In this document: piece by piece, positions 21,335-62,486 of the stretch
How the letters are laid out: each line of letters starts with the position of its first letter
Position numbering within the stretch: the first letter of the stretch is position 1
From: Lacibacter sp. H375
GTDB taxonomy: Bacteria; Bacteroidota; Bacteroidia; Chitinophagales; Chitinophagaceae
NCBI RefSeq assembly: GCF_037892425.1
Contig: NZ_JBBKTT010000001.1
Location: 2,480,001 to 2,544,000 of the forward strand
Reading direction: 5' to 3'
DNA: 64,000 bases
Program-made: the position numbers and the translations under genes
The notes under the pieces: generated by a model
The model's input: only the letters and a program-made list of their open reading frames with translations
The model's database searches: none
What the model was told of the DNA's origin: nothing

Positions 21335-22252
21335 ATGCGTTTAAAAGTATTCATCATTTATTGTTCAATACTCATTCTGCTTGTTTCCTGTTCAAGCAAG
21401 GCCTATCTGTTCACATCCTTTCATGAACCTGCCGACGCAGGTTTACGGATGTTGTACAGTTATGATGGAAAAAACTGGACGGATCTTGATACAGTTCTTT
21501 TACAACCGAAAGTGGGTAATCAGAAAGTGATGCGTGACCCAAGCATGCTGCAGGGGCCGGATGGTGTATTTCATTTGGTGTGGACGAGCAGCTGGCGTGG
21601 CGATCCTGGTTTTGGTTATGCTTCATCGAAAGATCTGTTGCATTGGAGCGATCAGCAATTCATCAACGTGATGAAGAACGAGCCAACAACGGTGAATGTA
21701 TGGGCGCCTGAATTATTTTATGATGATGAAGCAAGGCAATACATTATCATCTGGGCCAGCTGTATTCCAGGAAGATTTGAACAAGGCATTGAAGAAGATA
21801 GTAACAATCACCGCATGTATGTAACTACAACGCCTGATTTTAAAACGTTTAGTGATACAAAACTATTTATCGATCCAAAGTTCAGCGTTATTGATGCTGT
21901 GATCGTGAAACGAAAGAAAGATGATTATGTGCTGGTGCTGAAAGATAATACAAGACCTGAGCGGAATCTTAAAGTGGCATTCGGCACTTCAGCGCTTGGT
22001 CCATGGAAAAATATTTCAAAACCATTTTCCGACAATTTCACCGAAGGTCCATCGGTGGTAAAGTTGAAAGATGAGTGGCTGATCTATTTCGATTCGTACC
22101 GAAAGAAAATTTATGAAGCGGTTGCAACGAAAGACTTTGTAAAGTTTGAAAATGTAACGACGAAAGTAAAAGTACCGGAAGGGCATAAGCATGGAACGAT
22201 TGTACCGGTGAAGAAGAGAGTGATAAAAAAGTTACTAAAGAATAAGCAGTGA
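21335..22252 (+). CDS. GH43-like five-bladed beta-propeller lipoprotein
   Basis: 305 residues; lipoprotein signal LLVSC places it at a membrane surface. Propeller motifs of clan GH-F are present: RDPSML (D68), WAPELF, VIDAVIV (D187) and TEGPSVV (E237). These give a plausible catalytic triad D68/D187/E237 in the usual order and spacing. GH43 members remove alpha-L-arabinofuranose, beta-xylose or beta-galactose; the substrate here is unknown. The first half after the lipobox reads FTSFHEPADAGLRMLYSYDGKNW, which is the first blade. It starts 4 nt after the GH140 stop and is clearly co-transcribed. The basic tail KKRVIKKLLKNK is unusual but short. Confidence 0.85.
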   Translation: MRLKVFIIYCSILILLVSCSSKAYLFTSFHEPADAGLRMLYSYDGKNWTDLDTVLLQPKVGNQKVMRDPSMLQGPDGVFHLVWTSSWRGDPGFGYASSKDLLHWSDQQFINVMKNEPTTVNVWAPELFYDDEARQYIIIWASCIPGRFEQGIEEDSNNHRMYVTTTPDFKTFSDTKLFIDPKFSVIDAVIVKRKKDDYVLVLKDNTRPERNLKVAFGTSALGPWKNISKPFSDNFTEGPSVVKLKDEWLIYFDSYRKKIYEAVATKDFVKFENVTTKVKVPEGHKHGTIVPVKKRVIKKLLKNKQ

Positions 22253-22254
22253 AC

Positions 22255-24099
22255 ATGAAATTGATTGTAAAGAACATTTTGGTTAGTAGTGTTATTTTCT
22301 TCACTCCTTTAGGGGATGGGGACTTGCTTGCGCAAGATACCGTTCGCTATACTGGTACAACTTTGTCTAACGTCGATTATCATCACGGGCAATTATCGCC
22401 TGTAGTAGGTGTGCATAATATTCAAACGATGAGAGCCAACCGTGCAGATACAGCAGCCACTTCATGGACATATAATCATGCACCTATGCTGGCTTACTGG
22501 AATAACACTTTCTATTTGGAATATCTAAGCGATCCTGTTGGCGAACATATCCCTCCGGGTCAAACATTATTGCAAACATCAAAAGATGGTTACAACTGGA
22601 CTTATCCTGTAGTAATTTTTCCTCCATATAAAATACCGGATGGTTTTGTAAAAGAAGGCAAGACGGATACTGCAAAGAATAGCTATGCTGTGATGCATCA
22701 ACGCTTTGGTTTTTACACATCTAAGTCAAAACGATTATTTGCATTGGCGTTTTATGGAATTGCATTGGGACAAAAAGATGATCCCAATGATGGCAATGGA
22801 ATTGGTCGTGTGATCAGGGAAATAAAGGCAGATGGTTCATTCGGGCCGATCTATTTTTTACGATATAATCATTCCTTCAACGAAAAGAATACAAATTATC
22901 CGTTTTATAAATCATCAAAAGACATGGGCTTTGTTGCAGCATGTGATGAAATTCTGAACACGCCTTTGCTGATGATGCAGACGGTAGAGGAAGGCGACCG
23001 TAACGATCCTTTGATTCCTTTGCAGAAAGATTTCAAGGCGTTCAATTATTATCATTTGCCAAATGGAAATGTAGTAGGACTCTGGAAGTCGGCATTAACA
23101 AGCATTTCGAAAGACGAAGGAAAAACCTGGCAATACAATCCAACAAGAGCACCGGGTTTTGTAAACTCCAATGCGAAAATATGGGGACAGCGTACCAGCG
23201 ATGGGAAATATGCAACAGTTTACAACCCTTCTGAATTTCGCTGGCCTTTGGCCGTTAGTGTGAGTGATGACGGCTTGAAGTATGAGAATCTTCTGTTGGT
23301 AAATGGCGAGATCACTTACATGCGTTACGGAGGTGCATACAAGAGTTACGGTCCGCAGTATGTACGTGGTATTCAGGAAATGGATGGAAAACCTGCCGAT
23401 AACAATATGTGGGTGACTTATAGCATGAACAAAGAAGATATGTGGGTGAGTCGTGTTCCTGTTCCTGTAAAAAACAAAGTAGCAGCACATGTAAATGATG
23501 TATTCAACAACATGACTGAAGGCAAAGAACTGAATGAATGGAATATTTATAGCCCACTTTGGTGCAGGGTGAATGTAGAAACTATCAACAATCAGAAAGT
23601 AATTGCCTTGCACGACAGCGATCCGTTCGATTATGCAAAACTTGAACGCATTTTTCCTGAATCGAAGAACCTGGTAGTTGAATTTTCGGTAACAGCACAA
23701 CAATCCAACACTGGGAATTTAGAAATTGAATTGCTTGATAAAAAAGGAACTGCTACTCTTCGCTTAATGCTTGATTCAACAGGCAGTATTTTAACCAAGC
23801 AGGGTTATCGTAATAAGAGTCTGGGTAAATACACTGCAGGCGAGCAACTCAACATCAAAATTGACTTAAATACAACAACACGTTTCTATACTGTCACGAT
23901 CAATAATGGTAAACCTAATCTGAATCTCTTTTTCCAACCGGTTGAATCAGTAGAACGTTTGTTGTTCAGAACAGGTGCGGTACGTCGTTTCCCAAATGCT
24001 GATACACCAACAGACCAGGATTATGATCTGCCGGGTGCAAACGGAAAAGATAAAGAAGCGCTTTATCAAATTCATTACTTAAAAACAAAATCACTCTAA
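22255..24099 (+). CDS. Secreted sialidase-like (BNR) beta-propeller with C-terminal beta-sandwich, substrate unknown
   Basis: 614 residues from the ATG at 22255 (a GTG at 22249 is less likely), 2 nt after the previous stop. The signal peptide is odd: a hydrophobic run is followed by TPLGDGDLLAQ, coded by a repeat-like stretch (22301-22321). The mature part contains Asp-box-type motifs such as SISKDEGKTW (about 282-291) and LQTSKDGYNW, and a long conserved-looking core (SYAVMHQRFGFYTSKSKRLF, YMRYGGAYKSYGPQYVRGI). The C-terminal ~190 residues form a LamG/CBM-like sandwich. The fold suggests a GH33-like or propeller lyase enzyme acting on an acidic sugar, but no characterised family is recognised. 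It directly precedes the sugar isomerase gene. Confidence 0.75.
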   Translation: MKLIVKNILVSSVIFFTPLGDGDLLAQDTVRYTGTTLSNVDYHHGQLSPVVGVHNIQTMRANRADTAATSWTYNHAPMLAYWNNTFYLEYLSDPVGEHIPPGQTLLQTSKDGYNWTYPVVIFPPYKIPDGFVKEGKTDTAKNSYAVMHQRFGFYTSKSKRLFALAFYGIALGQKDDPNDGNGIGRVIREIKADGSFGPIYFLRYNHSFNEKNTNYPFYKSSKDMGFVAACDEILNTPLLMMQTVEEGDRNDPLIPLQKDFKAFNYYHLPNGNVVGLWKSALTSISKDEGKTWQYNPTRAPGFVNSNAKIWGQRTSDGKYATVYNPSEFRWPLAVSVSDDGLKYENLLLVNGEITYMRYGGAYKSYGPQYVRGIQEMDGKPADNNMWVTYSMNKEDMWVSRVPVPVKNKVAAHVNDVFNNMTEGKELNEWNIYSPLWCRVNVETINNQKVIALHDSDPFDYAKLERIFPESKNLVVEFSVTAQQSNTGNLEIELLDKKGTATLRLMLDSTGSILTKQGYRNKSLGKYTAGEQLNIKIDLNTTTRFYTVTINNGKPNLNLFFQPVESVERLLFRTGAVRRFPNADTPTDQDYDLPGANGKDKEALYQIHYLKTKSL

Positions 24100-25517: not shown

Positions 25518-25521
25518 TTGA

Positions 25522-26364: not shown

Positions 26365-26388
26365 TAAAAAGCGAAAGAAAAATAGAAT

Positions 26389-27354
26389 ATGGCTGAACAA
26401 ATCATTATACCGGCAGGAGGAGATAAACCAAACCAGGATGTTTTTTCTGAAACCTTGCAACGACTGGCTGCAACAGATAAGAACATCATTGCAGTAACAA
26501 GTGATTCAAGAGGTTCAGGTAAACTCGTGCCGTTTGGAAAAAGTTTTCCAAAGCAAATTGTAGAAGTAGGTATTGCTGAACAAAACCTGGTAGGTGTAGC
26601 AGCCGGGCTTGCATCATGCGATAAAAAAGTATTTGCCGTATCACCTGCTTGTTTCTTAACAGCACGTGCATTGGAGCAGATCAAGAATGATATCTGCTAC
26701 AGTGATAACCCTGCAACAGTAGTTGGGATCAGCGCAGGAGTAAGTTATGGCGCATTGGGAAGCACACATCATAGCCTTCACGATTTTGCAGTATTACGTG
26801 CCATCAACAATATCATCATTGTTGCACCTGCCGATAATTTCGAAACACAGAAAGCTACTGAGTTGGCGGCAGAAAGCAAACATCCTGTTTACCTGCGTTT
26901 CGGCAAACGTGTAATGCCATCATTGAAAGAAGATAACAGCGATGGTTTTGTTTTTGGTAAAGGTCGTGTAATAACAGAAGGAACCGATGTAGCCATCATT
27001 GCCAATGGTGAAACCGTTTACCCTGCTGTAAAAGCAGCGGGCAAATTAAAAGCAAATGGAATTGCAGCAACTGTAGTAAGCATGCATACCATCAAACCAT
27101 TAGATACAGAGTTGTTATCGAAACTGGCTGACACATGCAATGCAATTGTTACAGTAGAAGAACATAGTGTATATGGTGGATTAGGTGAAGCCTGTGCTTC
27201 GTACATGTTGCAGAAAGGATATGCAAAACCATTTAAGATCATGGGCATACCGGATGAGTACACAGTTACAGGTCCGCAGTTGGATATATTTAAACATTAC
27301 GGAATAAGTGAAGATGGAATTGCTGATGAAGTAACGAACTTGTTGAAAGTTTAA
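26389..27354 (+). CDS. Transketolase, C-terminal (pyrimidine-binding) subunit
   Basis: 321 residues carrying the PYR domain and the C-terminal transketolase domain. The catalytic glutamate that activates thiamine diphosphate is E64 in VEVGIAEQN. The substrate-loop histidines occur in GSTHHSLHDFAV, and the last third has the usual VTVEEHSVYGGLGEA. It completes the transketolase begun by the upstream gene; the 24-nt gap between them holds an A-rich leader. The enzyme would move a two-carbon ketol unit from a phosphorylated ketose to an aldose phosphate, feeding the pentose phosphate pathway. Confidence 0.95.
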   Translation: MAEQIIIPAGGDKPNQDVFSETLQRLAATDKNIIAVTSDSRGSGKLVPFGKSFPKQIVEVGIAEQNLVGVAAGLASCDKKVFAVSPACFLTARALEQIKNDICYSDNPATVVGISAGVSYGALGSTHHSLHDFAVLRAINNIIIVAPADNFETQKATELAAESKHPVYLRFGKRVMPSLKEDNSDGFVFGKGRVITEGTDVAIIANGETVYPAVKAAGKLKANGIAATVVSMHTIKPLDTELLSKLADTCNAIVTVEEHSVYGGLGEACASYMLQKGYAKPFKIMGIPDEYTVTGPQLDIFKHYGISEDGIADEVTNLLKV

Positions 27355-27426
27355 CCACAGAGAACACAAAGGCACAGAGTTTCTTTTTGATATCAGTGAA
27401 AAAAACTGTGGGATCTCCGTGTTAAA
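27355..27426. repeat. CACAGAG-type palindromic repeat, copy 1, intergenic
   Basis: Left arm ACCACAGAGAACACAAAGG with CACAGAGTTT (from 27354) and a degenerate right arm AACTGTGGGATCTCCGTG (27404-27422) flank a short loop. The element fills the whole gap between the transketolase and kinase genes and runs to within four bases of the kinase ATG. Related copies are at 28956, 30487, 37108, 45809 and 63743. Confidence 0.75.
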
Positions 27427-33315: not shown

Positions 33316-36300
33316 ATGAAAAGAATTATAACCTTACTTGTTCTGTTTATTTCTGTTCAGCAATTAACTGCACAGGTAACAGTGAGTAATCTTCGCTGCG
33401 AAATGCTGCTGAACCCATTGGGTATTGATGTAAAAAAACCAAGATTAAGCTGGCAATTGCAAAGCAACCAACGTAATGTTGTGCAAACAAGCTATCAGAT
33501 ACTGGTGAGCAGCTCTGCTCAAAACCTGCAACTGAATAAAGGCGATGTATGGAACTCCGGCAACATCAACAGCAATCAATCATTGCATGTGCAATACAAT
33601 GGTGCAGAATTGAAGCCGGGTAAAACTTATTACTGGAAAGTGTTTGTGCAAACGAATAAAGGGAAAGCTGTTGCTACACAAACAGCGTTCTTTTCAACCG
33701 GACTTACAACAGAATTATGGAAAGCAAAATGGATCGGTTATGATAAAGGTTCTGCATGGGATAGTATTACACAATGGAGCAGGTTAAGTGCAAGATACCT
33801 GCGCAAAGAATTTAGCAGTAAGCCTGCAGTAAAAAGGGCAACTGTTTATCTCTCCGGTTTGGGTATGTACGAACTCTACATCAATGGAAAAAAGATCGGT
33901 GACCAGGTATTAGCGCCTAATCCAACTGATTATCGCAAGACTTATTTCTACAATACACATGATGTAACGGCACTGATCAAAGCAGGAAGTAATGCAATTG
34001 CAACAGTATTAGGCAACGGTCGTTTCTTCACGATGCGTCAGAATTACAAAACGCAAAAGCATAATACATTCGGTTTTCCCAAACTCCTATTGCAGTTAGA
34101 AATTGAATATGCAGATGGAACAAAGAAAACGGTGGTAAGTGATGAAAGCTGGAAATTAAATGTGGATGGCCCTATCCGCACCAACAATGAATATGATGGC
34201 GAAGAATATGATGCAACAAAAGAATTCAATGGCTGGACGAATGCTGGCTTTAATGATAGCAAATGGATGCAACCGGAATTAGTGGAAGCAACCACAGGAA
34301 AAATGGTAGCGCAAATGAGCGAACCCATGAAAGTGATGAAAACCATCAAGCCCGTTTCAATTAAAAAAACTGCCAGTGGAAAATACATCCTTGATATGGG
34401 ACAGAATTTTGCAGGATGGATCAAGTTGCAAAATATCAATGGTAAGAAAGGAGAAAAGGTTACACTACGTTTTGCAGAAAGCTTACAATCAAATGGTGAA
34501 GTGTTTGTAGCAAACCTGAGAGATGCAAAGGTGACAAATATTTATACGTTGAAAGGAACAGGCAATGAGATTTGGCAGCCTTCTTTTGTGTACAATGGTT
34601 TCCGTTATGTGGAGGTATCAACATTTCCAGGCACACCAACTATTAATCAGTTTGAAGGAAACTTAGTGTATGATGCCATTGAAACAACAGGATCATTTCA
34701 AACATCTAATGCAACGATCAATACAATTTATAAAAATGCATGGTGGGGCATCGCATCAAATTACAAAGGCATGCCCGTTGATTGTCCGCAGCGTAACGAA
34801 CGTCAACCTTGGTTAGGCGATCGTACTGTTGGATCACAAGGTGAAAGTTATGTATTCAACAATGCAAATCTTTATGCCAAGTGGATGCAGGATATTGAAG
34901 ACAGTCAAACAGAAGAAGGAAGTATTCCCGATGTGGCACCTGCTTTCTGGAATTATTATAGTGATGATGTGACTTGGCCAGCAGCCTATATTTTCATCAG
35001 CAATAATTTATACAATCAGTTTGGTGATATTACTCCGATTCAAAAACATTATCCATCCATGAAGAAATGGATGATGTACATGAAGAGTAAGTACATGAAG
35101 GATTATATTATTACCCGTGATAAATATGGTGACTGGTGTGTGCCACCTGAAAGCCTGAATCTCATTCATGCAAAAGATACCAATCGTTTAACGGATGGCA
35201 AGTTGATTGCAACGGCTTACTATTACAAGTTGCTGTCATACATGCAGCGCTTTGCCAATATTACCAACAACAAAGAAGATGCAACCTATTATGGTTCGCT
35301 AAGCGATAGTATCCGTACCGCATTTCAAGAAACATTTTACAATCCAAAACTGAAACAATACAGCAACAATACGGTTACTGCAAACTTGTTACCGTTGTAT
35401 TTTGGTATTTGTCCTGATTCGTTACGAACAGCAGTATTTGAAAAAATCAGGATCAAAACGCATGTGGAAAATCATGGACATATCAGTACGGGGCTAATTG
35501 GTTCACAATGGATCATGCGTGGATTAACGGAGTATGGTTATCCTGATCTGGCTTATATCATGGCATCAAACAAAACTTATCCCAGTTGGGGTTATATGGC
35601 GGAGAATGGTGCAACTACTATTTGGGAATTGTGGAATGGTAACACCGCCGATCCCAATATGAACAGCCAGAATCATGTAATGCTTCTCGGTGATCTGCTC
35701 ACCTGGTTCTATGAAAATCTTGCGGGTATCAGAACAAACAAAACAGATGTGGCGTTCAAGAAGATCATCATGAAACCAACTATGCCTGCAGGTTTGGATT
35801 TTGTAAAAGCATCGTACAATAGTTTCCATGGTTTGATCAAAAGCGAATGGAATAATTCAGTAGATAAATTTGAATGGAAGATCAGCATACCGGCCAACAC
35901 GTCAGCTACTGTTTATATTCCTGCAAACAGTGTAGATCAAATTACAGAAAGCGGAGCAGCTATTGTAAACAGCAAAGACATTAAATTCATTAAAGAAGAT
36001 GATGGGGCAGTGGTGCTTGAAATTGCATCGGGCAATTACACGTTCATCCGCAGCAAAAAATACAGAAAAGGAATTGTAAAAGATGAATTCATTTTTGATC
36101 GGGCATCTTTTCCTGAAAGTCATGCTGCTACTATTGCAGAAACACCGGAAGGTTTAATTGCTTCATGGTTTGGCGGTACAAAAGAAGGCTACAAAGATGT
36201 GTGCATCTGGACAAGTCATTTCAAGAACGGCCAATGGACAGCACCTGCAAAAGTTGCTGACGGTGTAATGAATGATACATTGCGCTATCCTACTTACAAT

Positions 36301-37107
36301 CCTGTTTTGTTTTATGCACCAAATGGTGAACTGTTGTTATTTTATAAAATAGGACCTAATGTAGCAGGCTGGACGGGCTGGATGAAACGCAGCAAAGACA
36401 ACGGTCACACATGGAGCGAACGGGAGGCTTTGCCCGAAGGATTTCTTGGCCCTATCAAAAACAAACCTGAATTAATCAATGGAGTTTTGCTTTGCCCAAG
36501 CAGTACAGAAAAAACAGGCTGGAAAGCACATGTTGAATTCACAAAAGATTTCGGCAAAACATGGACGAAGACAGAAGCCATCAACGATCCGAAAATATTA
36601 CAAGCCATTCAACCAAGTATTTTAAAATATTCTGATGGTCGTTTGCAGATCCTTTGTCGCAGCCGCAACACCACGCTCAACGAAAGCTGGAGTAGTGACG
36701 GTGGCAAAACATGGAGCGAAATGAAAGCATCTGCATTGCCGAATAACAATTCAGGAACAGATGCTGTAACATTGAAAGATGGAAGACAATTGTTGGTGTA
36801 CAACCATAATCTTCCAAATGCATCATGGGTAAATGGCAAAGGTCCACGGACACCATTGAATGTTGCTATCACAAAAGATGGTAAAGTGTGGAGTGCTGCG
36901 TTGATACTGGAAGATTCTCCTATCAGTCAGTATTCGTATCCATCGGTGATACAAACAAAAGATGGAATGGTGCATATTGTTTATACATGGAGAAGAGAAA
37001 AGATCAAACATGTGGTGCTTGATCCGAGCAAACTGGAATTGAAAGAAATTGTGAACAAGAAATGGCCGGGAGCGAAAGAGACTGTTGGAAAAACAACGGA
37101 TGATTAA
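33316..37107 (+). CDS. Bimodular GH78 alpha-L-rhamnosidase fused to a C-terminal sialidase-like propeller
   Basis: 1263 residues, far longer than a normal GH78 (about 900). Signal peptide ends LTAQ. Residues 21 to about 905 repeat the full GH78 layout (NPLGIDVKKPRLSWQLQ, ILDMGQNFAG, DCPQRNERQPWLGD with D489 and E495, and GATTIWELW with E771). From about 918 a second domain begins (FIFDRASFPESHAATIAE). It has three Asp boxes, SKDNGHTW, TKDFGKTW and SSDGGKTW (near 1026, 1076 and 1128), and so a six-bladed sialidase fold. In rhamnogalacturonan II, side chain C is alpha-L-rhamnose on Kdo, a sialic-acid-like sugar. A rhamnosidase joined to a Kdo-releasing sialidase domain would remove that whole chain (inference). 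Confidence 0.92.
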   Translation: MKRIITLLVLFISVQQLTAQVTVSNLRCEMLLNPLGIDVKKPRLSWQLQSNQRNVVQTSYQILVSSSAQNLQLNKGDVWNSGNINSNQSLHVQYNGAELKPGKTYYWKVFVQTNKGKAVATQTAFFSTGLTTELWKAKWIGYDKGSAWDSITQWSRLSARYLRKEFSSKPAVKRATVYLSGLGMYELYINGKKIGDQVLAPNPTDYRKTYFYNTHDVTALIKAGSNAIATVLGNGRFFTMRQNYKTQKHNTFGFPKLLLQLEIEYADGTKKTVVSDESWKLNVDGPIRTNNEYDGEEYDATKEFNGWTNAGFNDSKWMQPELVEATTGKMVAQMSEPMKVMKTIKPVSIKKTASGKYILDMGQNFAGWIKLQNINGKKGEKVTLRFAESLQSNGEVFVANLRDAKVTNIYTLKGTGNEIWQPSFVYNGFRYVEVSTFPGTPTINQFEGNLVYDAIETTGSFQTSNATINTIYKNAWWGIASNYKGMPVDCPQRNERQPWLGDRTVGSQGESYVFNNANLYAKWMQDIEDSQTEEGSIPDVAPAFWNYYSDDVTWPAAYIFISNNLYNQFGDITPIQKHYPSMKKWMMYMKSKYMKDYIITRDKYGDWCVPPESLNLIHAKDTNRLTDGKLIATAYYYKLLSYMQRFANITNNKEDATYYGSLSDSIRTAFQETFYNPKLKQYSNNTVTANLLPLYFGICPDSLRTAVFEKIRIKTHVENHGHISTGLIGSQWIMRGLTEYGYPDLAYIMASNKTYPSWGYMAENGATTIWELWNGNTADPNMNSQNHVMLLGDLLTWFYENLAGIRTNKTDVAFKKIIMKPTMPAGLDFVKASYNSFHGLIKSEWNNSVDKFEWKISIPANTSATVYIPANSVDQITESGAAIVNSKDIKFIKEDDGAVVLEIASGNYTFIRSKKYRKGIVKDEFIFDRASFPESHAATIAETPEGLIASWFGGTKEGYKDVCIWTSHFKNGQWTAPAKVADGVMNDTLRYPTYNPVLFYAPNGELLLFYKIGPNVAGWTGWMKRSKDNGHTWSEREALPEGFLGPIKNKPELINGVLLCPSSTEKTGWKAHVEFTKDFGKTWTKTEAINDPKILQAIQPSILKYSDGRLQILCRSRNTTLNESWSSDGGKTWSEMKASALPNNNSGTDAVTLKDGRQLLVYNHNLPNASWVNGKGPRTPLNVAITKDGKVWSAALILEDSPISQYSYPSVIQTKDGMVHIVYTWRREKIKHVVLDPSKLELKEIVNKKWPGAKETVGKTTDD

Positions 37108-37191: not shown

Positions 37192-38748
37192 ATGCACAAT
37201 TTGCCATTTATTGATCTTGCAGTGATTGCCGTATACATGCTTGCCATGATCGGCATTGGCATGTATTTTTCACGCAAGAATAAAAACAGCGATCAGTTTA
37301 CCAAAGCATCGGGAAAAATTCCGGGCTGGGCCATTGGTCTTTCTATCTACGCCACGTTTTTAAGCAGCAATACTTTTTTAGGAGTACCAGGCAAAGCATT
37401 CGGTAGTAACTGGAATGCGTTTGTGTTCAGTATTTCCATGCCATTGGCTGCATGGCTTGCATCAAAATATTTTGTGCCGTTCTATCGCAACACCGGAGAG
37501 ATATCAGCTTATACGCATTTAGAAAAGCGATTCGGTCCATGGGCAAGAACCTATACTGTGATTTGTTTTTTGCTCACACAGTTTGCAAGAATGGGTTCTA
37601 TCTTTTTCGGTATTGCATTAAGTCTGCAGGCACTCACCGGTTTCAGTATGCAATCGATCATGATCGTGATGGGCATCTGTATTATTATTTACACCGTGCT
37701 TGGCGGTATTGAAGCAGTGATCTGGACAGAAGTAGCGCAAGGCATCATTAAAACATTAGGCGCTTTATTGATTTTGTTTTTAGTGGTGAAAGAAATTCCC
37801 GGTGGGTTCTCCACGATTATTGATGTGGCAACAACTGATCACAAAACAAGCTTGGGAAGTTTCTCGCCTAATTTTACTGAATCAACTTTTTGGGTGGTAT
37901 TGTTTTATGGCTTCTTCATCAACCTGAATAATTTCGGGATGGATCAAAATTATATTCAACGTTATCATACTGCACAAACATCCAAACAGGCAAGTAAATC
38001 AGTTTGGCTTTGTGTATGGATCTATGTACCTGCTTCGTTTTTATTTTTTGTGATCGGCACAGCCTTGTATGCATTTTATCAAACACAACCGGGATTAATT
38101 GATCCTGTGAAATTGCAGGTAGCGGCTGAACGTTTAGGTGTGGCTGCTACATCAGCGGAGGTAAAACAACTCGCCGCATCTTTAACGGCTGCTGATTATG
38201 GCGATAAAGTATTACCGTTTTTTATGGTGAATAATATTCCAACAGGTTTGGTTGGGTTGATCGTATCGGCATTGTTATCTGCTGCCATGAGTACTATCAG
38301 CAGCAATATGAATGCATCGGCCACGGTATTCACTGTTGATATTTATCAGAAATATATTAAACCGGATATTACGGATAAACGAAAGTTGTACTTGCTGCAT
38401 GTTTCAACAATCGCTTTTGGTGTAGTTGGCTTGTGTACAGGTTTAGCAATGATCGGCGCAAAAAGCTTACTCGACATTTGGTGGGAATTGAGTGGCATTT
38501 TCGCTGGTGGTATGCTGGGTTTGTTTTTGCTGGGGCTTATCAGTCGCCAAGCAAAAAACGTCGCAGCAATAACGGCCGTTATTATTGGTATAATTGTGAT
38601 CTTATGGATGACATTCTCCGGCAGATTGGAAGGAGATTATGCATTTCTCCGCAATCCGTTACATAAGAACATGATCATTGTGGTAGGAACGCTGAGCATT
38701 TTCCTAACGGGTTTGCTCGTAACCAAACTCCGGCCCTCAAAACAGTAA
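37192..38748 (+). CDS. Sodium:solute symporter (SSS family)
   Basis: 518 residues from the ATG at 37192; a GTG at 37159 is in frame but lies within the palindromic repeat. About 13-14 membrane helices are visible, beginning LPFIDLAVIAVYMLAMIGIG. SSS-family marks include the KIPGWAIGLSIYATFLSSNTFLG segment near helix 2, the ISAYTHLEKRFG loop, and the sodium-site helix LLSAAMSTISSNMNASATVF. It should import a released sugar or sugar acid across the inner membrane with Na+. It closes the operon that starts at 19924; its stop codon overlaps the next promoter motif. Confidence 0.94.
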   Translation: MHNLPFIDLAVIAVYMLAMIGIGMYFSRKNKNSDQFTKASGKIPGWAIGLSIYATFLSSNTFLGVPGKAFGSNWNAFVFSISMPLAAWLASKYFVPFYRNTGEISAYTHLEKRFGPWARTYTVICFLLTQFARMGSIFFGIALSLQALTGFSMQSIMIVMGICIIIYTVLGGIEAVIWTEVAQGIIKTLGALLILFLVVKEIPGGFSTIIDVATTDHKTSLGSFSPNFTESTFWVVLFYGFFINLNNFGMDQNYIQRYHTAQTSKQASKSVWLCVWIYVPASFLFFVIGTALYAFYQTQPGLIDPVKLQVAAERLGVAATSAEVKQLAASLTAADYGDKVLPFFMVNNIPTGLVGLIVSALLSAAMSTISSNMNASATVFTVDIYQKYIKPDITDKRKLYLLHVSTIAFGVVGLCTGLAMIGAKSLLDIWWELSGIFAGGMLGLFLLGLISRQAKNVAAITAVIIGIIVILWMTFSGRLEGDYAFLRNPLHKNMIIVVGTLSIFLTGLLVTKLRPSKQ

Positions 38749-38821: not shown

Positions 38822-39808
38822 ATGGTTGTTATGCCTGATAAAAAGTTTGTCCCGGTTATGATCACTCCATACGATCTCAAAGCAGAGGTTGACCTGGATG
38901 TGGTAACTACATTGATCGAATTTTATTTAGCTGCCGGTGTTAAAGGTTTCTTCGCCAACTGTCTCAGCAGCGAAATGTTCAGCATCACTGAAAATGAGCG
39001 TTTGAATTTAACTGCACATATTGTAAAACAGGTGAGAGGGCGTGTGCCTGTTGTTGCAACAGGTTCATTTGGACTCACCATTGCAGACAAAGCGCTTTTC
39101 ATTCGTAAAATTTATGATACCGGTATTGATGCTGCCATCATGATCACGGGCCATTTTGCAAAAGAAGAGGATAGTGATGATGTGTTGTTGCGAAATTTTG
39201 AGCAACTGTTCCAGGCAACAGGTAATATTCCATTGGGCATGTATGAATGCCCGGCACCATACAAGCGCATTATCAGTCCAGATGTGTTCAGGCAATTACT
39301 TTCAGCAAATCGCTTGACTTATCATAAGGATACATCTATTACACATGAAAATGTGCAAGCAAAGCTTTCGATATTGAAAGAGACAAATAACAGTATGGAG
39401 TTTTATGATGCACATACACCGAATGCATCATTCAGTCTGCAACAGGGAGCGAAAGGGATGTCATCCATCTCAGGTAATTTTTATCCGGAAGTAATGGTGT
39501 GGATGGTGAACAATGCAACAAATCCTGAAAAACAGGAAGAAGTGAAATGGTTGCAGGAAGAGTTGACAAAAGTTGATCCGCTCATTCATATTGCTTATCC
39601 CATGAGTGCAAAATATTTTTTACAAAAGCGGGGCTTGCCCGTAAGAACCATCAGTCGTGCCGTTGCAGCCAAGTTAACACCCGAACAACGCAATGCACTC
39701 GATGATATTCATAACCGCTTTGAACATTGGTGCGAACGTTTACAGATTCAGAAAGTGGATGTGCAATCCTTTGCCGGTTCAGGTTTTAATGAAGAAAGTG
39801 TGTTTTAA
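38822..39808 (+). CDS. DHDPS/NAL-family aldolase, copy 1
   Basis: 328 residues, cytoplasmic TIM barrel of the dihydrodipicolinate synthase/N-acetylneuraminate lyase superfamily. These class I enzymes form a Schiff base with pyruvate. The lysine is K169 (TYHKDTS), and the partner tyrosine lies in GMYECPAP. The usual GTTGE loop is changed to ANCLSSEMFS, so it is a divergent member. Such enzymes cleave 2-keto-3-deoxy sugar acids, including sialic acid, Kdo and KDG. As first gene of an operon with a second paralogue, an Fe-dehydrogenase, PdxA and a DUF1537 kinase, it is likely to cut a deoxy-ulosonic acid to pyruvate and an aldehyde. Start may be 38822 or 38831. Confidence 0.88.
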   Translation: MVVMPDKKFVPVMITPYDLKAEVDLDVVTTLIEFYLAAGVKGFFANCLSSEMFSITENERLNLTAHIVKQVRGRVPVVATGSFGLTIADKALFIRKIYDTGIDAAIMITGHFAKEEDSDDVLLRNFEQLFQATGNIPLGMYECPAPYKRIISPDVFRQLLSANRLTYHKDTSITHENVQAKLSILKETNNSMEFYDAHTPNASFSLQQGAKGMSSISGNFYPEVMVWMVNNATNPEKQEEVKWLQEELTKVDPLIHIAYPMSAKYFLQKRGLPVRTISRAVAAKLTPEQRNALDDIHNRFEHWCERLQIQKVDVQSFAGSGFNEESVF

Positions 39809-39820
39809 TAAAAATCGTTT

Positions 39821-40972
39821 ATGTCTGTTCCTGCATTTAAAATTATTTTTCCAGGAAAGCTTGTAGTTGGTAATGGAACGTTGCGTCAGCTTGCTGCTGA
39901 TGTGCTCGAGATGAAACCAACGAAAGTTTTTATTGCTACGATTACTCCGTTGTTAAATACGATCGATCCGTTTGTATTATCATTTAAACAGGAGTCAATT
40001 GAAGTAATGGTTGATACATCCATTGTTGCCGAACCTTCATTCGGTGATTTTGAAACGTTGATGAAGAAAGTGTCACCATTCAATCCGGATGTGGTGATTG
40101 GTATTGGCGGAGGCAGTGTGTTGGATATAGCCAAGCTTGTTGCTGCGCAATTAGAGAATAAACAACAGTTAAGAGATTATGTGGGCATTGGTTTGTTGAA
40201 GGGAAGAAAAAAGAAACTCATCTGTGTGCCTGCGACTTCGGGAACTGGTAGCGAAGTTTCGCCTAATGCAATATTGGTTGATGATGCAGATAACCAGAAG
40301 AAAGGAATTATCAGTCCGTTTCTTGTTCCTGATATTGTGTATGTAGATCCGTTATTGACTGTTTCTGTTCCGCCTGCAATTACTGCAGCAACAGGCATGG
40401 ATGCATTAACTCATTGTCTCGAAGCATATACCAACAAGTTTGCACAACCGTTTATTGATCTCTTTGCATACGAAGGCATGCGATTGATCGCAGCTAATAT
40501 TGTTACTGCTGTGAAAGATGGAAGCAATGTTGAAGCAAGAGAGAAAGTAGCAATGGGCAGTTTGTATGGCGGCTTTTGTTTAGGCCCGGTGAATACAGCA
40601 GGGGTGCATGCATTATCGTATCCATTGGGAAGTATGTATCATTTGGCTCATGGTTTATCCAATGCGGTATTGTTGCCTTATGTGATGGAGTACAATATTG
40701 TTTCTTCGGCAGATCGTTATGCTGATGTGGCTGTTGCATTAGGATGTACTCGTGAAGATGATGTTTGGACGACCGCCAAAGCAGGAGTAGAGAAGATAAA
40801 AGAACTCAACAAGGCCTGCGGCATACCAACAACGTTAAGAGAAGTGGGAGTGAAAGAAGAAACGATTCCGCAAATGGCGATGGAAGCGATGAAAATCCAG
40901 CGCCTGCTGAAAAATAATCCAAGAGAAATTACAGAACAGGATGCGGTGAGCATTTTTAAATCTGCATTTTGA
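39821..40972 (+). CDS. Iron-containing alcohol dehydrogenase
   Basis: 383 residues, group III metal-dependent dehydrogenase. The NAD-binding motif is GIGGGSVLDIAK, and SGTGSEVSP follows. The four metal ligands expected from lactaldehyde reductase FucO are all in place: D194 and H198 (GMDALTH), H263 (GVHALSYP) and H277 (HLAHG). The family reduces small aldehydes or oxidises small alcohols, e.g. lactaldehyde/propanediol. Placed between two aldolases, it probably reduces the aldehyde they release; lactaldehyde from deoxyhexose breakdown or a tetruronate from Dha are candidates (inference). It starts 12 nt after the first aldolase and overlaps the second by one base. Confidence 0.94.
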   Translation: MSVPAFKIIFPGKLVVGNGTLRQLAADVLEMKPTKVFIATITPLLNTIDPFVLSFKQESIEVMVDTSIVAEPSFGDFETLMKKVSPFNPDVVIGIGGGSVLDIAKLVAAQLENKQQLRDYVGIGLLKGRKKKLICVPATSGTGSEVSPNAILVDDADNQKKGIISPFLVPDIVYVDPLLTVSVPPAITAATGMDALTHCLEAYTNKFAQPFIDLFAYEGMRLIAANIVTAVKDGSNVEAREKVAMGSLYGGFCLGPVNTAGVHALSYPLGSMYHLAHGLSNAVLLPYVMEYNIVSSADRYADVAVALGCTREDDVWTTAKAGVEKIKELNKACGIPTTLREVGVKEETIPQMAMEAMKIQRLLKNNPREITEQDAVSIFKSAF

Positions 40973-41874
40973 TGAAGAAGAATAAAAAATTTAGTGGTGT
41001 GATTGTTCCGGTGATAACACCGTTAACTAAATCGTTGCAGATCGATGATGCAGCAGTAGAAAAAATATTCGGACAATTTTATACGCATAACATTTCTCCA
41101 TTTATACTTGGTACAACAGGAGAGTCAGCCTCCTTATCTGCTGATATAAAGGAGCAGTATTTAAAATCAGCAGCAAAGCATAAGAAAGCCGGAACTGTTT
41201 TATACGCAGGTATTTCATCGAACGTAGTTAGTGAGTCAATTGAGTTTGCAAAGTTCTGTGCCGACAATGGAGTAGATGCTGTTGCTACAACTTTACCTTC
41301 TTATTATGCGTTAACCGAAACGCAGATGAAGAATTATTTTGAAGCATTGGCAGATGCGGTTCCATTACCATTGATCATTTATAATATTCCTGCAACTACG
41401 CATATGAGTATTCCGTTGCAGTTGATCGATGAACTTAGTCATCATCCAAACATCATTGCTACCAAAGATTCAGAACGCAGTGATGAACGTTTGGCGCAAT
41501 CATTAGCCTTGTGGAAAGACAGAGAAGACTTTGGTCATTTCCTTGGTTGGGCAGCAAAATCTGCAGAAGCATTGATTGGTGGTAGTGATGGATTGATACC
41601 GAGCACAGGGAATTTAATGCCGGAGATCTATGATGAAATGGAAAAGGCTGTTGATGCAGGTGATCATACAAGAGCATTTGAAATGCAAAAGCTCAGTGAT
41701 GTGTACGGCAACTTATACCAAAGCGGAAAGACATTAGGTGAAAGTTTGTGGGCATTGAAAGTATTGATGCAGCATAAAGGTTTGTGTGAAGATGTGGTGA
41801 TGCCGCCCTTGCAATCATTAGGAGAAGAAGAGAAACAAAAATTAATTCAATCGTACGTAGAAATAAGAGGATAA
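40972..41874 (+). CDS. DHDPS/NAL-family aldolase, copy 2
   Basis: 300 residues from the ATG at 40972, which shares a base with the preceding stop (TGATG). Unlike copy 1 it keeps the canonical superfamily motifs: GTTGES (residues 47-52), IYNIP with the catalytic tyrosine, and Schiff-base K165 in IATKDS. It should catalyse retro-aldol cleavage or condensation with pyruvate. Two quite different aldolases in one operon suggest two ulosonic-acid substrates, or two stereoisomers, rather than a recent duplication. Dihydrodipicolinate synthesis itself is unlikely in this catabolic setting. Confidence 0.92.
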   Translation: MKKNKKFSGVIVPVITPLTKSLQIDDAAVEKIFGQFYTHNISPFILGTTGESASLSADIKEQYLKSAAKHKKAGTVLYAGISSNVVSESIEFAKFCADNGVDAVATTLPSYYALTETQMKNYFEALADAVPLPLIIYNIPATTHMSIPLQLIDELSHHPNIIATKDSERSDERLAQSLALWKDREDFGHFLGWAAKSAEALIGGSDGLIPSTGNLMPEIYDEMEKAVDAGDHTRAFEMQKLSDVYGNLYQSGKTLGESLWALKVLMQHKGLCEDVVMPPLQSLGEEEKQKLIQSYVEIRG

Positions 41875-41880
41875 GTAGTT

Positions 41881-42909
41881 ATGAGTTCATTACCAATTTT
41901 AGCCGTTACCATGGGCGATCCTGCAAGCATCGGTCCCGAGATTGCAGTAAAAGCATTATTGCAAAAAGAGATTCACGCCATCTGCAAGCCAATTCTTGTT
42001 GGTGATGCAGTAGTATTTCAACAGATCATTGATTTGTTGAAATTGGATGCAAAAGTGAATGCTGTTTCAAAATGTGCCGATGCAAAATTTGAATTGGGAA
42101 CAATTGATGTATACGATCTTGGCATCGCCGATATAACAAAGCTTGAATTTGGAAAGATCAACGCCATGTGTGGCGAAGCATCATTCCAGGCTGTTAAGAA
42201 AGCAATTGAATTAGCATTGGCAAAAGAAGTTGATGGAACAGTAACAGGTCCCATCAACAAAAAATCCATCAACGAAGCCGGTCATCATTATGCAGGTCAT
42301 ACAGAAATCTATGCGCATTATACTGGCACAAAGAAATATGCAATGTTGCTCGTGGAAGATAACATCAATGTGATTCATGTAAGTACGCATGTATCACTCA
42401 GACAAGCTTGTGATCTTGTAAAGAAAGAACGCATTGTGCAGGTGATCGAATTGATCGTCGATGGATTGAAACGTTTAGGCAAAACAAATTTGAAAATAGG
42501 AGTAGCGGGATTAAATCCGCATGCAGGTGATAGTGGTTTGTTTGGAACTGAAGATGATGAAGAAATTTTACCGGCAGTACTCGAAGCAAGAAACTTAGGT
42601 TATGATGTCGAAGGACCTGTTCCGCCCGATACCATGTTTGCAAAAGCAGCAATGGGTGCGTATGGTGGAGTTGTAGCGATGTATCATGACCAGGGACATA
42701 TTCCTTTCAAACTCGCAGGTTTCAAATGGAATGCAGAAAAACAACAGATGGATAGTGTGAAAGGTGTGAACATTACTTTGGGCTTGCCAATCATCCGTAC
42801 ATCAGTTGATCATGGTACTGCATTTGAAATTGCAGGGAAAGGCATTGCCAGCGCCGATGCAATGATATTGGCAATTGAAAGTGCGGTGCAACTAAGTAAA
42901 CACAAATAA
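41881..42909 (+). CDS. PdxA-family 4-phosphate dehydrogenase (PdxA2-like)
   Basis: 342 residues. PdxA hallmarks are intact: MGDPASIGPE at the start, GPINKKSINEAG, the metal-binding histidine in GHTE, and AMYHDQGHIPFKL. True PdxA makes vitamin B6, but PdxA2-type members beside DUF1537 kinases oxidise and decarboxylate tetronate 4-phosphates to dihydroxyacetone phosphate. The next gene is such a kinase, so the catabolic role is favoured. NAD is the expected cofactor and a divalent metal is required. The gene begins 6 nt after the aldolase and ends just before a palindromic repeat. Confidence 0.93.
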   Translation: MSSLPILAVTMGDPASIGPEIAVKALLQKEIHAICKPILVGDAVVFQQIIDLLKLDAKVNAVSKCADAKFELGTIDVYDLGIADITKLEFGKINAMCGEASFQAVKKAIELALAKEVDGTVTGPINKKSINEAGHHYAGHTEIYAHYTGTKKYAMLLVEDNINVIHVSTHVSLRQACDLVKKERIVQVIELIVDGLKRLGKTNLKIGVAGLNPHAGDSGLFGTEDDEEILPAVLEARNLGYDVEGPVPPDTMFAKAAMGAYGGVVAMYHDQGHIPFKLAGFKWNAEKQQMDSVKGVNITLGLPIIRTSVDHGTAFEIAGKGIASADAMILAIESAVQLSKHK

Positions 42910-42963
42910 TGAGTGATGAGTAATGAGTGGCTCACTCATCACTCATCACTGTTCACTCATCAT
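42903..42963. repeat. GAGTGATGAG palindromic repeat between pdxA-like and kinase genes
   Basis: ATGAGTGATGAGTAATGAGT (42909-42928) is followed, after a few bases, by its inverted counterpart CACTCATCACTCATCACTG and TTCACTCATCAT. The arms pair over about 18 bases with one mismatch. It fills the intergenic gap and ends at the ATG of the kinase gene. Confidence 0.75.
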
Positions 42964-44085
42964 ATGATTGCAGTTATAGCCGATGATTTTACAGGGGCAG
43001 CTGAATTAGCCGGCATCAGTCTGCGTTACGGACTGAAAGTAGAATTATGTACCGGTGATGTTGCTTTAACAGATGCCGATGTGTTGATTGTATCAACAGA
43101 TAGTCGCTCTTTGAATAAAACTGCTGCATTAGCAAAGACAGCAGCAGCCATTGAGCGAGTGTTGCAGCTAAATCCAACACTTGTTTATAAAAAGATCGAT
43201 TCGGTTTTACGTGGCTATGTATTGGATGAACTGAAACTGCAGATGCAGTTGATGCTGAAAACAAAAGCGTTTATACTTCCTGCAAATCCAACATTGGGAA
43301 GAACCATCAGTAACGGAAAATATTATGTACAGGGAAAACTCATCAGCGAAACAGGTTTTGCAGCTGATCCAGAGTTTCCCATCAGTCATTCGTCGGTGAA
43401 ATCGATCTTGAAAAATGAAACGATAAATGTGTTGAGGCATACTGATGTATTGCCAGCAAACGGAATCGTTGTTAGTGAAGCAGAAAACGAAACAGATGTG
43501 CAGGCATGGGCTGGCAAACTGGATGAAAGTTTTGTTTTAGCAGGTGCAGGAGATTTTTATACAGCATTGCTCAATATACAATTCAAAGAAGTAAAACAGC
43601 AACAACCGGATTTGCAGCTTCCTTTTTTATATGTGTGCGGTACAGCTTACGATCAATCGGTGAATTACATCAAAAAGGTTGATGAAAAGAACAAGACTGT
43701 TTTATATATCACGAAGCAGATGATTGAAAGTGGAGTTGATGATCCTGCGTGGTTGCAGCGATGCAAAGATGTACTTGAACAAAAACAAAAAGCCATCATT
43801 GCATTGAACAGTGATACAATTCCGTCAGATACATCGGCTGCCGATCTGCGAAGCATCATGGCAAAAGCAGTGAAAGCAGTTGTTGAACAATGCAAGATCA
43901 GCGAATTGTTTATCGAAGGTGGATCAACAGCAACAGCCATTTTACAGGAGCTGGGTATCAAGAAACTTTCACCGGTAAATGAATTAGCAAGAGGAGTTGT
44001 GCGGATGAAAGCAGGAGAATTATACATAACGGTTAAACCCGGTAGTTACGAATTAAGCAACGAGATAAAACAACTATTCAAATAA
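42964..44085 (+). CDS. DUF1537 four-carbon acid sugar kinase (first copy)
   Basis: 373 residues from the ATG at 42964; an in-frame GTG at 42913 lies inside the repeat and would add a stretch unlike the family. The family start MIAVIADDFTGAAELAG is exact, and KIDSVLRGYV, FILPANPTLGRTI and the C-terminal Gly-rich IEGGSTATAIL follow. DUF1537 kinases phosphorylate the terminal hydroxyl of C4 sugar acids such as threonate, erythronate and their 2- or 3-oxo forms. With the adjacent PdxA homologue, this gives tetronate to tetronate-4-phosphate to DHAP plus CO2. It differs strongly from the second DUF1537 kinase at 60407, which is paired with a RuBisCO-like protein instead. Confidence 0.93.
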   Translation: MIAVIADDFTGAAELAGISLRYGLKVELCTGDVALTDADVLIVSTDSRSLNKTAALAKTAAAIERVLQLNPTLVYKKIDSVLRGYVLDELKLQMQLMLKTKAFILPANPTLGRTISNGKYYVQGKLISETGFAADPEFPISHSSVKSILKNETINVLRHTDVLPANGIVVSEAENETDVQAWAGKLDESFVLAGAGDFYTALLNIQFKEVKQQQPDLQLPFLYVCGTAYDQSVNYIKKVDEKNKTVLYITKQMIESGVDDPAWLQRCKDVLEQKQKAIIALNSDTIPSDTSAADLRSIMAKAVKAVVEQCKISELFIEGGSTATAILQELGIKKLSPVNELARGVVRMKAGELYITVKPGSYELSNEIKQLFK

Positions 44086-44097
44086 AACTCACGAAGA

Positions 44098-44130
44098 ATG
44101 ATCTGTGTAAATCAGAGCAATCTGTGAGCA
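44098..44130. repeat. ATCTGTGTAAATC-type dispersed repeat fragment
   Basis: GATCTGTGTAAATCAGAGCA with ATCTGTGAGCAA resembles the ATCTGTGTAAATCTGCG-type repeats I know from Bacteroidota intergenic DNA. It lies between the DUF1537 kinase and the next symporter. Only one copy is seen in this window, so the call rests on memory of similar sequences. Confidence 0.4.
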
Positions 44131-44147
44131 ACCCAACGAACTTGCCA

Positions 44148-45689
44148 ATGGACCATTTACATTTTATTGATTATTTCATCATCCTTGTTGTACTGGGAGT
44201 CACACTTTATCTCGGCTTCCGGTTTGCAAACAGGCAAAACACAACCGAGAAATTTTTTCTTTCAAAAGGAAACTTTCCTTCATGGGCATTGGGTCTTTCA
44301 TTACTTTCTACACTCATCAGCAGTGTAACCTTTCTTGGGTACCCTGCACAAGGTTATGCAAGCAACTGGATCTTATTGGTACAAGGGTTAATGGTGCCCA
44401 TCGTTTTGCTGGGAACCATCTGGTTTATTGTGCCACTCTTTCGCAAAGTAATTGGTCTTAGTACTTACGAATATTTTGAAAAACGTTTTGGCGGCTTTGC
44501 ACGTTATTATAGTTCCTCTTCTTTTATTATTCGCCAGTTTGCTGGCATGGGCACAGTATTGTTTTTAATTGCAGTGGCCATTCATGAAATGACAAACATC
44601 AGTCCGTTCATTATTCTTGCAGTAGTTGGGTTCGTATTGGTGATGGTGAATTTAAAAGGGGGGATGCAGGCCGTTATCTGGCTCGATGTGTTCCAGGGGT
44701 TCATGTTATTCGCCAGTGGTATCATTTGCTTGGTGGTAATTTTATTATCTATCAAAGGCGGCATACCAGAAGCAATAAAGGTTGCAACAGAAAATAACCG
44801 CACAGGTTTTGGTCCATACGATTTTAAGTTTACAGAACTTACATTGGTTGTGATGATCATCAACGGATCGTTTTATGCTATTCAGAAATACGGAACCGAT
44901 CAAACAGTTGTGCAACGTTATCTCACTGCAAAAACAGATAAGGCTGCAGAGAAAGCATCGTTGCTTGGCATCTCACTCACAGTTCCTATCTGGACCATCT
45001 TTATGTTTATCGGTACAGCGTTGTTTGTTTTTTATAAACAGAATCCATTACCTGATGGTATGAAAGCAGAAGCAGTGTTCCCGCATTTTATTATGACACA
45101 GTTGCCAACAGGTGTCATTGGTTTTATTGTGGCTGCATTGATATCGGCGGCTATCTGTAGTCTTAGTGCCGATCTTAATTCGCTTGCTGCTGTTGGCATG
45201 GAAGATTATTATAAGAAGCTTCGTCCGGGTAAAACAGATCAGCAATATCTCTACACCAGTAAGGCCTTTGTTGTGTTTTCGGGTTTGTTATCCATTGCCA
45301 TCGGTGCATTTTATTTGCTGGCAGGTAACGAAGGTGTGCTTGGTGTTATCTTCACCATCTATGCAATTTTTTCCGGTGGCATCGTTGGTATTTTTCTTTT
45401 GGGTTTGTTTAGTGCAAGAGCCAATCGCCAAGGTGTCAACATTGGTATCATCACCTGTATTTTGTTTACGGCATGGGCCTTTCTCACAAGCACTCCCGTT
45501 GGTGTAAAGAATCCCAAATTCTTACTCGATTTAGGTAATTTTAATTTCACACATCACAAACTCATGTTGGGTGTTTACAGTCATCTCGTCGTGATTGTGG
45601 TGGGATATATCGCCAGTTTATTTTTCCCGAAACCTGTACTCGAACCAAATTTGTTGTACAGTAGTTGGAAAGCAAACAGGCATCTTTAA
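44148..45689 (+). CDS. Sodium:solute symporter (SSS family), second
   Basis: 513 residues from the ATG at 44148 (MDHLHFIDYF); a GTG at 44124 falls inside repeat-like DNA. It has about 13-14 transmembrane helices with the same SSS landmarks as the symporter at 37192: NFPSWALGLSLLSTLISSVTFLG, GLSTYEYFEKRFGGFARYY and the sodium-site helix LISAAICSLSADLNSLAAV. It is nevertheless clearly diverged from it. It probably imports the acid sugar used by the aldolase/PdxA/kinase operon, since it is the only transporter in that block. It could also be a sialic-acid-like (Kdo) permease, as some SSS members are. Confidence 0.93.
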   Translation: MDHLHFIDYFIILVVLGVTLYLGFRFANRQNTTEKFFLSKGNFPSWALGLSLLSTLISSVTFLGYPAQGYASNWILLVQGLMVPIVLLGTIWFIVPLFRKVIGLSTYEYFEKRFGGFARYYSSSSFIIRQFAGMGTVLFLIAVAIHEMTNISPFIILAVVGFVLVMVNLKGGMQAVIWLDVFQGFMLFASGIICLVVILLSIKGGIPEAIKVATENNRTGFGPYDFKFTELTLVVMIINGSFYAIQKYGTDQTVVQRYLTAKTDKAAEKASLLGISLTVPIWTIFMFIGTALFVFYKQNPLPDGMKAEAVFPHFIMTQLPTGVIGFIVAALISAAICSLSADLNSLAAVGMEDYYKKLRPGKTDQQYLYTSKAFVVFSGLLSIAIGAFYLLAGNEGVLGVIFTIYAIFSGGIVGIFLLGLFSARANRQGVNIGIITCILFTAWAFLTSTPVGVKNPKFLLDLGNFNFTHHKLMLGVYSHLVVIVVGYIASLFFPKPVLEPNLLYSSWKANRHL

Positions 45690-45741
45690 ATGGATAATTA
45701 TGAAAATGATAGTTGATAATGTTACCAACAAGAGTACTTCT

Positions 45742-61711: not shown

Positions 61712-61715
61712 TGGT

Positions 61716-61757: not shown

Positions 61758-61809
61758 CTAAATAGAACTACAAAAATTGGAATCATAAAATAAAAGGAGC
61801 ATAAGCAAT

Positions 61810-62472: not shown

Positions 62473-62486
62473 CGGGATTGCTTGTA

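Follow-up and report, generated by a model that had tools for sequence, protein, structure and literature searches.

A 64,000-nucleotide stretch of the Lacibacter sp. H375 genome (C1:2480001-2544000 in a genome of 5.08 Mb; hereafter the window) carries five adjoining genes that, in our likely reading, form a pathway taking deoxy-lyxo-heptulosaric acid (Dha), a rare seven-carbon sugar acid, to pyruvate, dihydroxyacetone phosphate (DHAP) and CO2, with the symporter-aldolase pair SSF1-ALDa beside them as a distinct module. The surrounding locus looks like one of rhamnogalacturonan II (RG-II) type, RG-II being the most complex plant pectin, as Pfam assignments of 39 window proteins include several GH78 proteins, SusC/SusD, an apiosidase, a GH143-like protein, GH141, GH127 and GH2. 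The reading is built on protein families, active-site positions, the folds of the aldolase ALDb and the kinase, the gene set and its co-occurrence with GH143, all taken from sequence, and on stereochemistry worked out by bookkeeping; the substrate of every step, the cofactors and the transport direction of the symporter SSF2 are what we infer.

The five-gene cassette and its conservation

What had been annotated as one operon consists of two modules, SSF1 with ALDa and the following five-gene cassette.

39821..40972, strand +: cassette gene 1 (Fe-ADH), Fe-dependent alcohol dehydrogenase, proposed D-threuronate reductase (Pfam Fe-ADH, conserved ligand positions)
40969..41874, ATG 40972, strand +: cassette gene 2 (ALDb), DHDPS/NAL-type pyruvate aldolase, proposed Dha aldolase (Pfam DHDPS, invariant residues, NAL fold model)
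41881..42909, strand +: cassette gene 3, PdxA2-like dehydrogenase, proposed D-threonate-4-phosphate dehydrogenase (Pfam PdxA, structure-entry scores, second genomic PdxA)
42964..44085 (open reading frame from GTG 42913), strand +: cassette gene 4, DUF1537 kinase, proposed D-threonate kinase (SBD_N/NBD_C, best NCBIfam model, fold)
44124..45689, strand +: cassette gene 5 (SSF2), sodium/solute symporter, proposed Dha importer (Pfam SSF, near the cassette in 67/80 loci)

The initial annotation, which listed ALDa and these five genes, was right in families and layout: all six are intact open reading frames on the + strand, and their Pfam scores exceed the gathering cut-offs (ALDa DHDPS 90.0 bits; Fe-ADH 128.9 and its C-terminal domain 190.8; ALDb DHDPS 142.6; PdxA 346.6; kinase SBD_N 126 and NBD_C 33.7; SSF2 SSF 119.3). 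Two genes were missing from its list, the ALDa partner SSF1 (37192-38748) and, 15 kb upstream, a homologue of GH143. Intergenic gaps run from -4 to 38 bases with the open reading frame starts, and one becomes 54 bases if the kinase starts at ATG 42964, which is more likely than GTG 42913.

An alignment scan with Fe-ADH, taking one genome per species, provided the 80 loci used below, the best 80 of at least 551 confirmed candidates. Near Fe-ADH, ALDb was found in 77 of these loci, PdxA in 77, DUF1537 in 74 and SSF2 in 67, with ALDb, PdxA and DUF1537 together in 73. The order FeADH-ALDb-PdxA-DUF1537 is kept in 64/80 loci and ALDb-SSF2-FeADH-PdxA in 8/80; the other eight fit neither order: six are on contigs of 3.6-12.2 kb that break off next to the cassette, in L078 PdxA is split, and in L150 no ALDb lies upstream. 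Dozens of genomes share the gene set in syntenic order, so the array is not due to chance, and the recurrence of the same genes in a reshuffled order argues for the cassette as a functional unit. Beside the free-standing copies L131, L138 and L147, the tested upstream neighbours belonged to one BLAST family of LacI-type regulators in all three cases. Cultured carriers include Lacibacter cauensis, Niabella ginsengisoli, Spirosoma profusum, Sphingobacterium paludis and Flavobacterium sufflavum.

For residue conservation, genes absent or matched over less than 80% of their length were dropped gene by gene, which kept, of the 80 loci, 80 rows for Fe-ADH, 76 for ALDb, 76 for PdxA, 73 for DUF1537, 66 for SSF2 and 16 for ALDa. 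Some dropped loci lie on short contigs, but SSF2 lacks a full-length match in longer loci too (L101, L102, L113, L130, L139). Structure models drew on 39 (A2) and 37 (A3) sequences, the window's included, picked by hand for spread. Some genomes recur under two handles (G004/G447, G009/G449, G010/G448 and G231/G513).

Enzymes of the cassette

By its residues ALDb belongs to the class I DHDPS/NAL aldolases, with the Schiff-base lysine K166 and Y138, S168, E169 and R174 present in 77/77 rows and R170 in 70/77, and a confident structure model gave the (beta/alpha)8 NAL fold with a template-modelling (TM) score of about 0.9 to NAL/DHDPS structures. The D191/E192 pair of NanA (Asp/Asp in YagE) is replaced by Ala in 74/77 and 61/77 rows, respectively. 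The loss of these acids and the gain of Arg170 and Arg174 would suit a second carboxylate on the substrate, though the alignment is no proof of a pocket location for these residues, and we propose that ALDb acts on Dha. The four Fe-ADH positions D194, H198, H263 and H277 show at least 95% conservation across 81 sequences, in agreement with the initial annotation of an Fe-dehydrogenase with all four metal ligands; their role as Asp-His-His-His ligands is presumably that known from FucO. None of the listed NCBIfam models reaches its cut-off with this protein.

The third gene product belongs to the PdxA fold family and is distinct from biosynthetic PdxA. Its scores are 287 bits to 2hi1, 285 to 4jqp and 274 to 6e85, which carries the name D-threonate 4-phosphate dehydrogenase, compared with 170 bits to 1ps7, and two PdxA copies were found in 7/7 cassette genomes versus one in 3/3 cassette-free genomes. 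The kinase has the two-domain fold of DUF1537 proteins, with SBD_N and NBD_C above cut-off and a mean predicted local confidence (pLDDT) of 95.6 for the model, whose TM scores, normalised to the query, were 0.70-0.81 to 1yzy, 5dmh and 3dqq and 0.49-0.52 to 4xfr, 4xgj and 4xg0. Among structure entries its best sequence match is 4xfm, a sister entry of the Pectobacterium protein 4xgj, which we take to be DtnK. All 39 members of the kinase family match both the D-threonate kinase (DtnK) and the 3-oxotetronate kinase models of NCBIfam, and a per-protein ranking, established for the window protein, puts D-threonate kinase first (146 bits) and 3-oxotetronate kinase next (79 bits). The kinase is proposed to act on D-threonate with ATP. 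DtnK is named in PMC10971088.

Proposed pathway for Dha

Stereochemical bookkeeping gives the intermediates of the proposed pathway. Removing C1-C3 of Dha as pyruvate leaves D-threuronate, and with the aldehyde reduced and the acid turned up this becomes D-threonate. The same bookkeeping applied to 3-deoxy-D-manno-octulosonic acid (Kdo) as a check yields D-arabinose, the known product and the one the initial annotation had named. By our own derivation, we know of no other RG-II sugar that could be worked to a tetronate through a pyruvate aldolase.

In the proposed sequence, SSF2 would import Dha, and ALDb, as a Schiff-base pyruvate aldolase, would cleave it between C3 and C4 into pyruvate and D-threuronate, whose aldehyde Fe-ADH would reduce with NADH to D-threonate. 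The DUF1537 kinase would then form D-threonate 4-phosphate, which the PdxA2-like enzyme would oxidise with NAD+, and loss of CO2 would give DHAP. Zhang et al. 2016 reportedly described a DtnK/PdxA2 route for D-threonate in which the PdxA2 step yields DHAP. The net reaction would be Dha + ATP to pyruvate + DHAP + CO2 + ADP, redox-neutral in that PdxA2 would return the NADH spent by Fe-ADH. The initial annotation had gone as far as a tetruronate and a tetronate on the way from Dha to DHAP; that scheme fits the genomic distribution (GH143 in 75/78 cassette genomes) and is here sharpened to D-threonate, with a kinase model match below cut-off.

Co-occurrence with GH143

The enzyme that would supply the substrate is encoded upstream of the cassette.

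22249..24099, strand +: GH143-like protein, proposed Dha hydrolase supplying substrate (PF24067; 774 bits to 5mqr residues 24-611)

The protein is homologous over its length to the N-terminal catalytic part of BT_1020, which we take 5mqr to be, also from the Pfam name; the entry itself is named beta-L-arabinobiosidase. The GH143 family was founded on a Bacteroides thetaiotaomicron enzyme that releases Dha from RG-II (PMC6811678).

PF24067/GH143 was found in 75/78 cassette genomes (38/40 and 37/38 in two sets) versus 21/395 genomes of an even sample of the phylum. For this count 79 of the 80 loci were used, with L093 dropped because L091 already represents that isolate, and L141 was also left out, which gave 78 genomes. 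In the 395-genome sample Fe-ADH occurred at E <= 1e-90 in five genomes, three of them with GH143. Of 59 relatives, 14 have GH143 above cut-off and one more has a weak GH143 match; all eight genomes with Fe-ADH belong to these 14. GH143 lies inside the fetched stretch in 22/80 loci, so the link is mostly one at the level of the genome. Thirty-one genomes were picked by hand, most of them with a cassette away from the usual RG-II arrangement; 29 of these 31 have GH143, 26 an apiosidase and 21 GH141. In G088, a distant relative, the distance between cassette and GH143 is 13 kb, sulfatases and a BNR protein stand nearby, and no apiosidase or GH141 match was found in that genome. Deoxy-lyxo-heptulosaric acid also occurs in green algal scales and thecae (PMC10762512), and one might speculate that this source feeds G088.

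At L067, and at L068 and L069 (G129, G088), the neighbours of the cassette include sulfatases, a TonB receptor and BNR_2 proteins, one of which carries a fused sulfatase-modifying-factor domain. It is possible that Dha from other, sulfated polysaccharides is used at these loci.

Fisher tests for the association gave p values of 1.4e-6 (59 relatives), 0.002 (14 genomes of the genus), 0.001 (395 genomes) and 3e-65 (the 78 genomes versus the cassette-negatives of the sample); all of them ignore phylogeny, a limit that weighs against the assignment to Dha, as do the following observations. Three of the 78 cassette genomes lack GH143, namely the metagenome-assembled genomes G457, G484 and G513 (Melioribacter), the last probably being the same genome as G231; G129 and G231 likewise have the cassette without GH143. 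The cassette co-occurs highly with RG-II genes in general (apiosidase in 26/31), which points first to RG-II and to Dha by way of the chemistry. Starting from GH143, 18 of the 21 genomes with it in the 395-genome sample lack Fe-ADH at E <= 1e-90, nine of them from genus g58, which may be Bacteroides-like; two loci from this genus, examined across 80 kb apiece, contain hydrolases with no match to ALDa, ALDb, Fe-ADH or PdxA. Across 23 GH143-positive, cassette-negative genomes, DUF1537 was not found in 14, was above cut-off in eight and gave one weak match. At the level of single proteins, the window kinase reaches 146 of the 450 bits of the DtnK equivalog cut-off and the cassette PdxA 323 of the 583 bits of the NCBIfam D-threonate-4-phosphate dehydrogenase model; the best named model for the latter is the generic PRK03743 (375 of 470), and only the general TIGR00557 is passed (338 vs 290).

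The idea that another DUF1537 protein stands in for the kinase in cassette-free GH143 genomes was rejected, given that only 8/23 have one above cut-off and that the copy identified in G395 sits with a RuBisCO-like protein. Such genomes either use another route or leave Dha unused.

The SSF1-ALDa module

37192..38748, strand +: second module, SSF1, sodium/solute symporter, tentatively for Kdo (Pfam SSF, adjoins ALDa in 7/8 further ALDa loci)
38822..39808, strand +: second module, ALDa, divergent DHDPS/NAL-type aldolase, tentatively a Kdo aldolase (Pfam DHDPS, K169/Y141 invariant)
33316..37107, strand +: GH78 rhamnosidase fused to a BNR_2 sialidase-like domain, possible Rha-Kdo hydrolase (Pfam)

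The initial annotation had both aldolases serve a single route, which comparison with relatives did not support. The congener G013 has GH78-BNR, SSF1 (99.0% identity), ALDa (98.8%) and the esterase/AP_endonuc_2 gene in this order, with all five genes from Fe-ADH to SSF2 missing and no Fe-ADH match at E <= 1e-60 in its genome. SSF1-ALDa is also present without an adjoining cassette in G020 and G205, while G017 has the cassette and no ALDa within the 20 kb read, and ALDa lies near the cassette in 17/80 related loci. As SSF1-ALDa and the cassette occur apart, the reading of one operon and one pathway was rejected. ALDa (E <= 1e-50) was found in 25/49 GH143-related genomes, cassette-bearing and cassette-free alike. 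K169 and Y141, at the positions of the catalytic Lys and Tyr, are invariant in 17/17 rows of ALDa, which also lacks the acid pair of NanA and YagE.

We give about an even chance to a role of SSF1-ALDa in the use of Kdo, for which the case is circumstantial. The GH78-BNR_2 fusion gene lies immediately upstream of SSF1. In RG-II, Dha and Kdo belong to two disaccharide side chains, of which chain C has a terminal rhamnose and chain D a terminal arabinofuranose (PMC12282258), and Kdo is located in chain C (PMC12168206). A Rha-Kdo side chain would need a rhamnosidase and an ulosonic-acid hydrolase, and the GH78-BNR_2 protein is a possible candidate for both. We do not take its BNR_2 domain as a proven Kdo hydrolase, its matches to solved sialidases being weak (best E 5e-8). 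In some relatives GH78 and BNR_2 are encoded by separate genes.

Alternative substrates for the cassette

The cassette might alternatively serve another 2-keto-3-deoxy acid, such as a C6 diacid formed when hexuronates are oxidised; the aldolase would then yield tartronate semialdehyde, Fe-ADH would turn this into glycerate, and the DUF1537 protein would be a glycerate kinase. This kind of logic is familiar from GarL/GarR/GarK, an aldolase, a semialdehyde reductase and a kinase for hexarates; NAL-type aldolases are said to be promiscuous as a family, pectin is rich in hexuronates, and the arginines and lost acid pair of ALDb would fit any diacid. We nevertheless consider it unlikely, as it offers no role for PdxA, which is near Fe-ADH in 77/80 loci, and leaves GH143 in 75/78 cassette genomes unexplained.

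Aceric acid is the other RG-II sugar for which we know of no catabolic route, and some unspecified reaction sequence on it would agree with a cassette in an RG-II locus that co-occurs with apiosidase (26/31) and GH141 (21/31). We could derive no tetronate from it through a pyruvate aldolase, however, and G088 has cassette and GH143 with no apiosidase or GH141 match, which makes this reading quite improbable. Equally doubtful is a cassette for Kdo, in which the aldolase would give D-arabinose and the remaining genes would act on its products: the NAL fold of ALDb would allow it, and BNR_2 sialidase-like proteins stand near many cassettes (a GH78/BNR match in 43/80 loci, a label that includes GH78 parts), but a tetronate kinase and PdxA2 would not use the C5 aldose from Kdo, and SSF1-ALDa is the better candidate for Kdo.

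Vitamin B6 salvage, with PdxA using 4-hydroxythreonine phosphorylated by the DUF1537 kinase, an activity that a DUF1537 kinase can have (PMC10971088, PMC7954711), is very unlikely, since another PdxA was found in 10/10 genomes searched, with or without the cassette, and the constant partners aldolase, Fe-ADH, symporter and GH143 would be unexplained. Lactaldehyde reduction in a non-phosphorylating rhamnose route (compare PMC3870299), an idea taken from the nearby GH78 and rhaM domain, was rejected, with 245 of 523 bits to the lactaldehyde reductase model and no role for the kinase and PdxA.

Other genes of the locus

Beyond these genes, the RG-II locus may hold two apiose routes. At 59163-63782 a RuBisCO-like protein, a second DUF1537 kinase, an Asp/Glu racemase-family protein and an SBF symporter stand in a row that recurs in L122 and L195 and resembles the RuBisCO-like apiose route that Carter et al. 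2018 are said to have described. A transketolase-type apiose route also exists, and the FucIso-C protein, split transketolase pair and FGGY kinase at 24105-28929 are perhaps such a route. The stretch 45595-48033 encodes a protein that joins a glucuronoyl-esterase-like domain to a xylose-isomerase-like TIM barrel (AP_endonuc_2), the two parts being separate genes in several relatives, and 48227-50731 a GH141 protein that carries an L-rhamnose mutarotase (rhaM) domain at its C-terminus. A DUF6298 protein (16684-19668) and a 549-aa protein (14992-16641) are conserved in the RG-II loci of relatives.

Significance and comparison with known systems

While the enzymes that cut RG-II are largely described, we found no published fate of Dha in the open-access library searched. 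Among the papers listed there, neither Dha catabolism, in line with the initial annotation, nor a threuronate reductase was found at the level of titles and abstract starts; most subscription literature lies outside this scope, so that absence there is weak evidence. The pathway is probably new, as a new combination of known families. It would supply genes with names, D-threonate as an exact intermediate, carriers in culture and, in the congener that lacks just these genes, a natural negative control. If true, it calls for the re-annotation of a recurring gene set for which DapA and PdxA are the best model names. It also suggests a division of labour on pectin. With less assurance than for the assignment to Dha itself, we favour a wider picture in which the redox-neutral pathway of symporter, aldolase, D-threuronate reductase, D-threonate kinase and PdxA2 would be a dedicated, exchangeable and optional add-on to RG-II loci, some degraders eating Dha and others leaving it to neighbours; a distant lineage with the cassette beside sulfatases and BNR proteins may use the Dha-bearing coverings of green algae, and SSF1-ALDa would be a second add-on, for Kdo.

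The proposed pathway resembles the routes for four-carbon sugar acids that use a DUF1537 kinase and PdxA2 (DtnK) in its kinase family, its PdxA2-like dehydrogenase and its predicted end product DHAP; unlike in those routes, an upstream aldolase and reductase would here make D-threonate from a C7 ulosaric acid, and the kinase scores well below the DtnK cut-off. With GarL/GarR/GarK it would share the order of aldolase, semialdehyde reductase and kinase on a keto-deoxy diacid, but the substrate would be C7 rather than C6, the enzyme families are unrelated and a PdxA2 step is added. The scavenging of sialic acid by a lyase and symporter (NanA, E. coli nan genes) similarly pairs a NAL-fold aldolase with a symporter, as in SSF1-ALDa and, within the cassette, ALDb; ALDb differs in lacking the D191/E192 pair and in having the conserved Arg170/Arg174, and no amino-sugar genes are found in the operon by Pfam of the window proteins. 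Finally, the RG-II locus of the window has GH143, apiosidase, GH78 and GH127 in common with the two loci of genus g58, whereas those loci, over 80 kb each, are without matches to ALDa, ALDb, Fe-ADH and PdxA.

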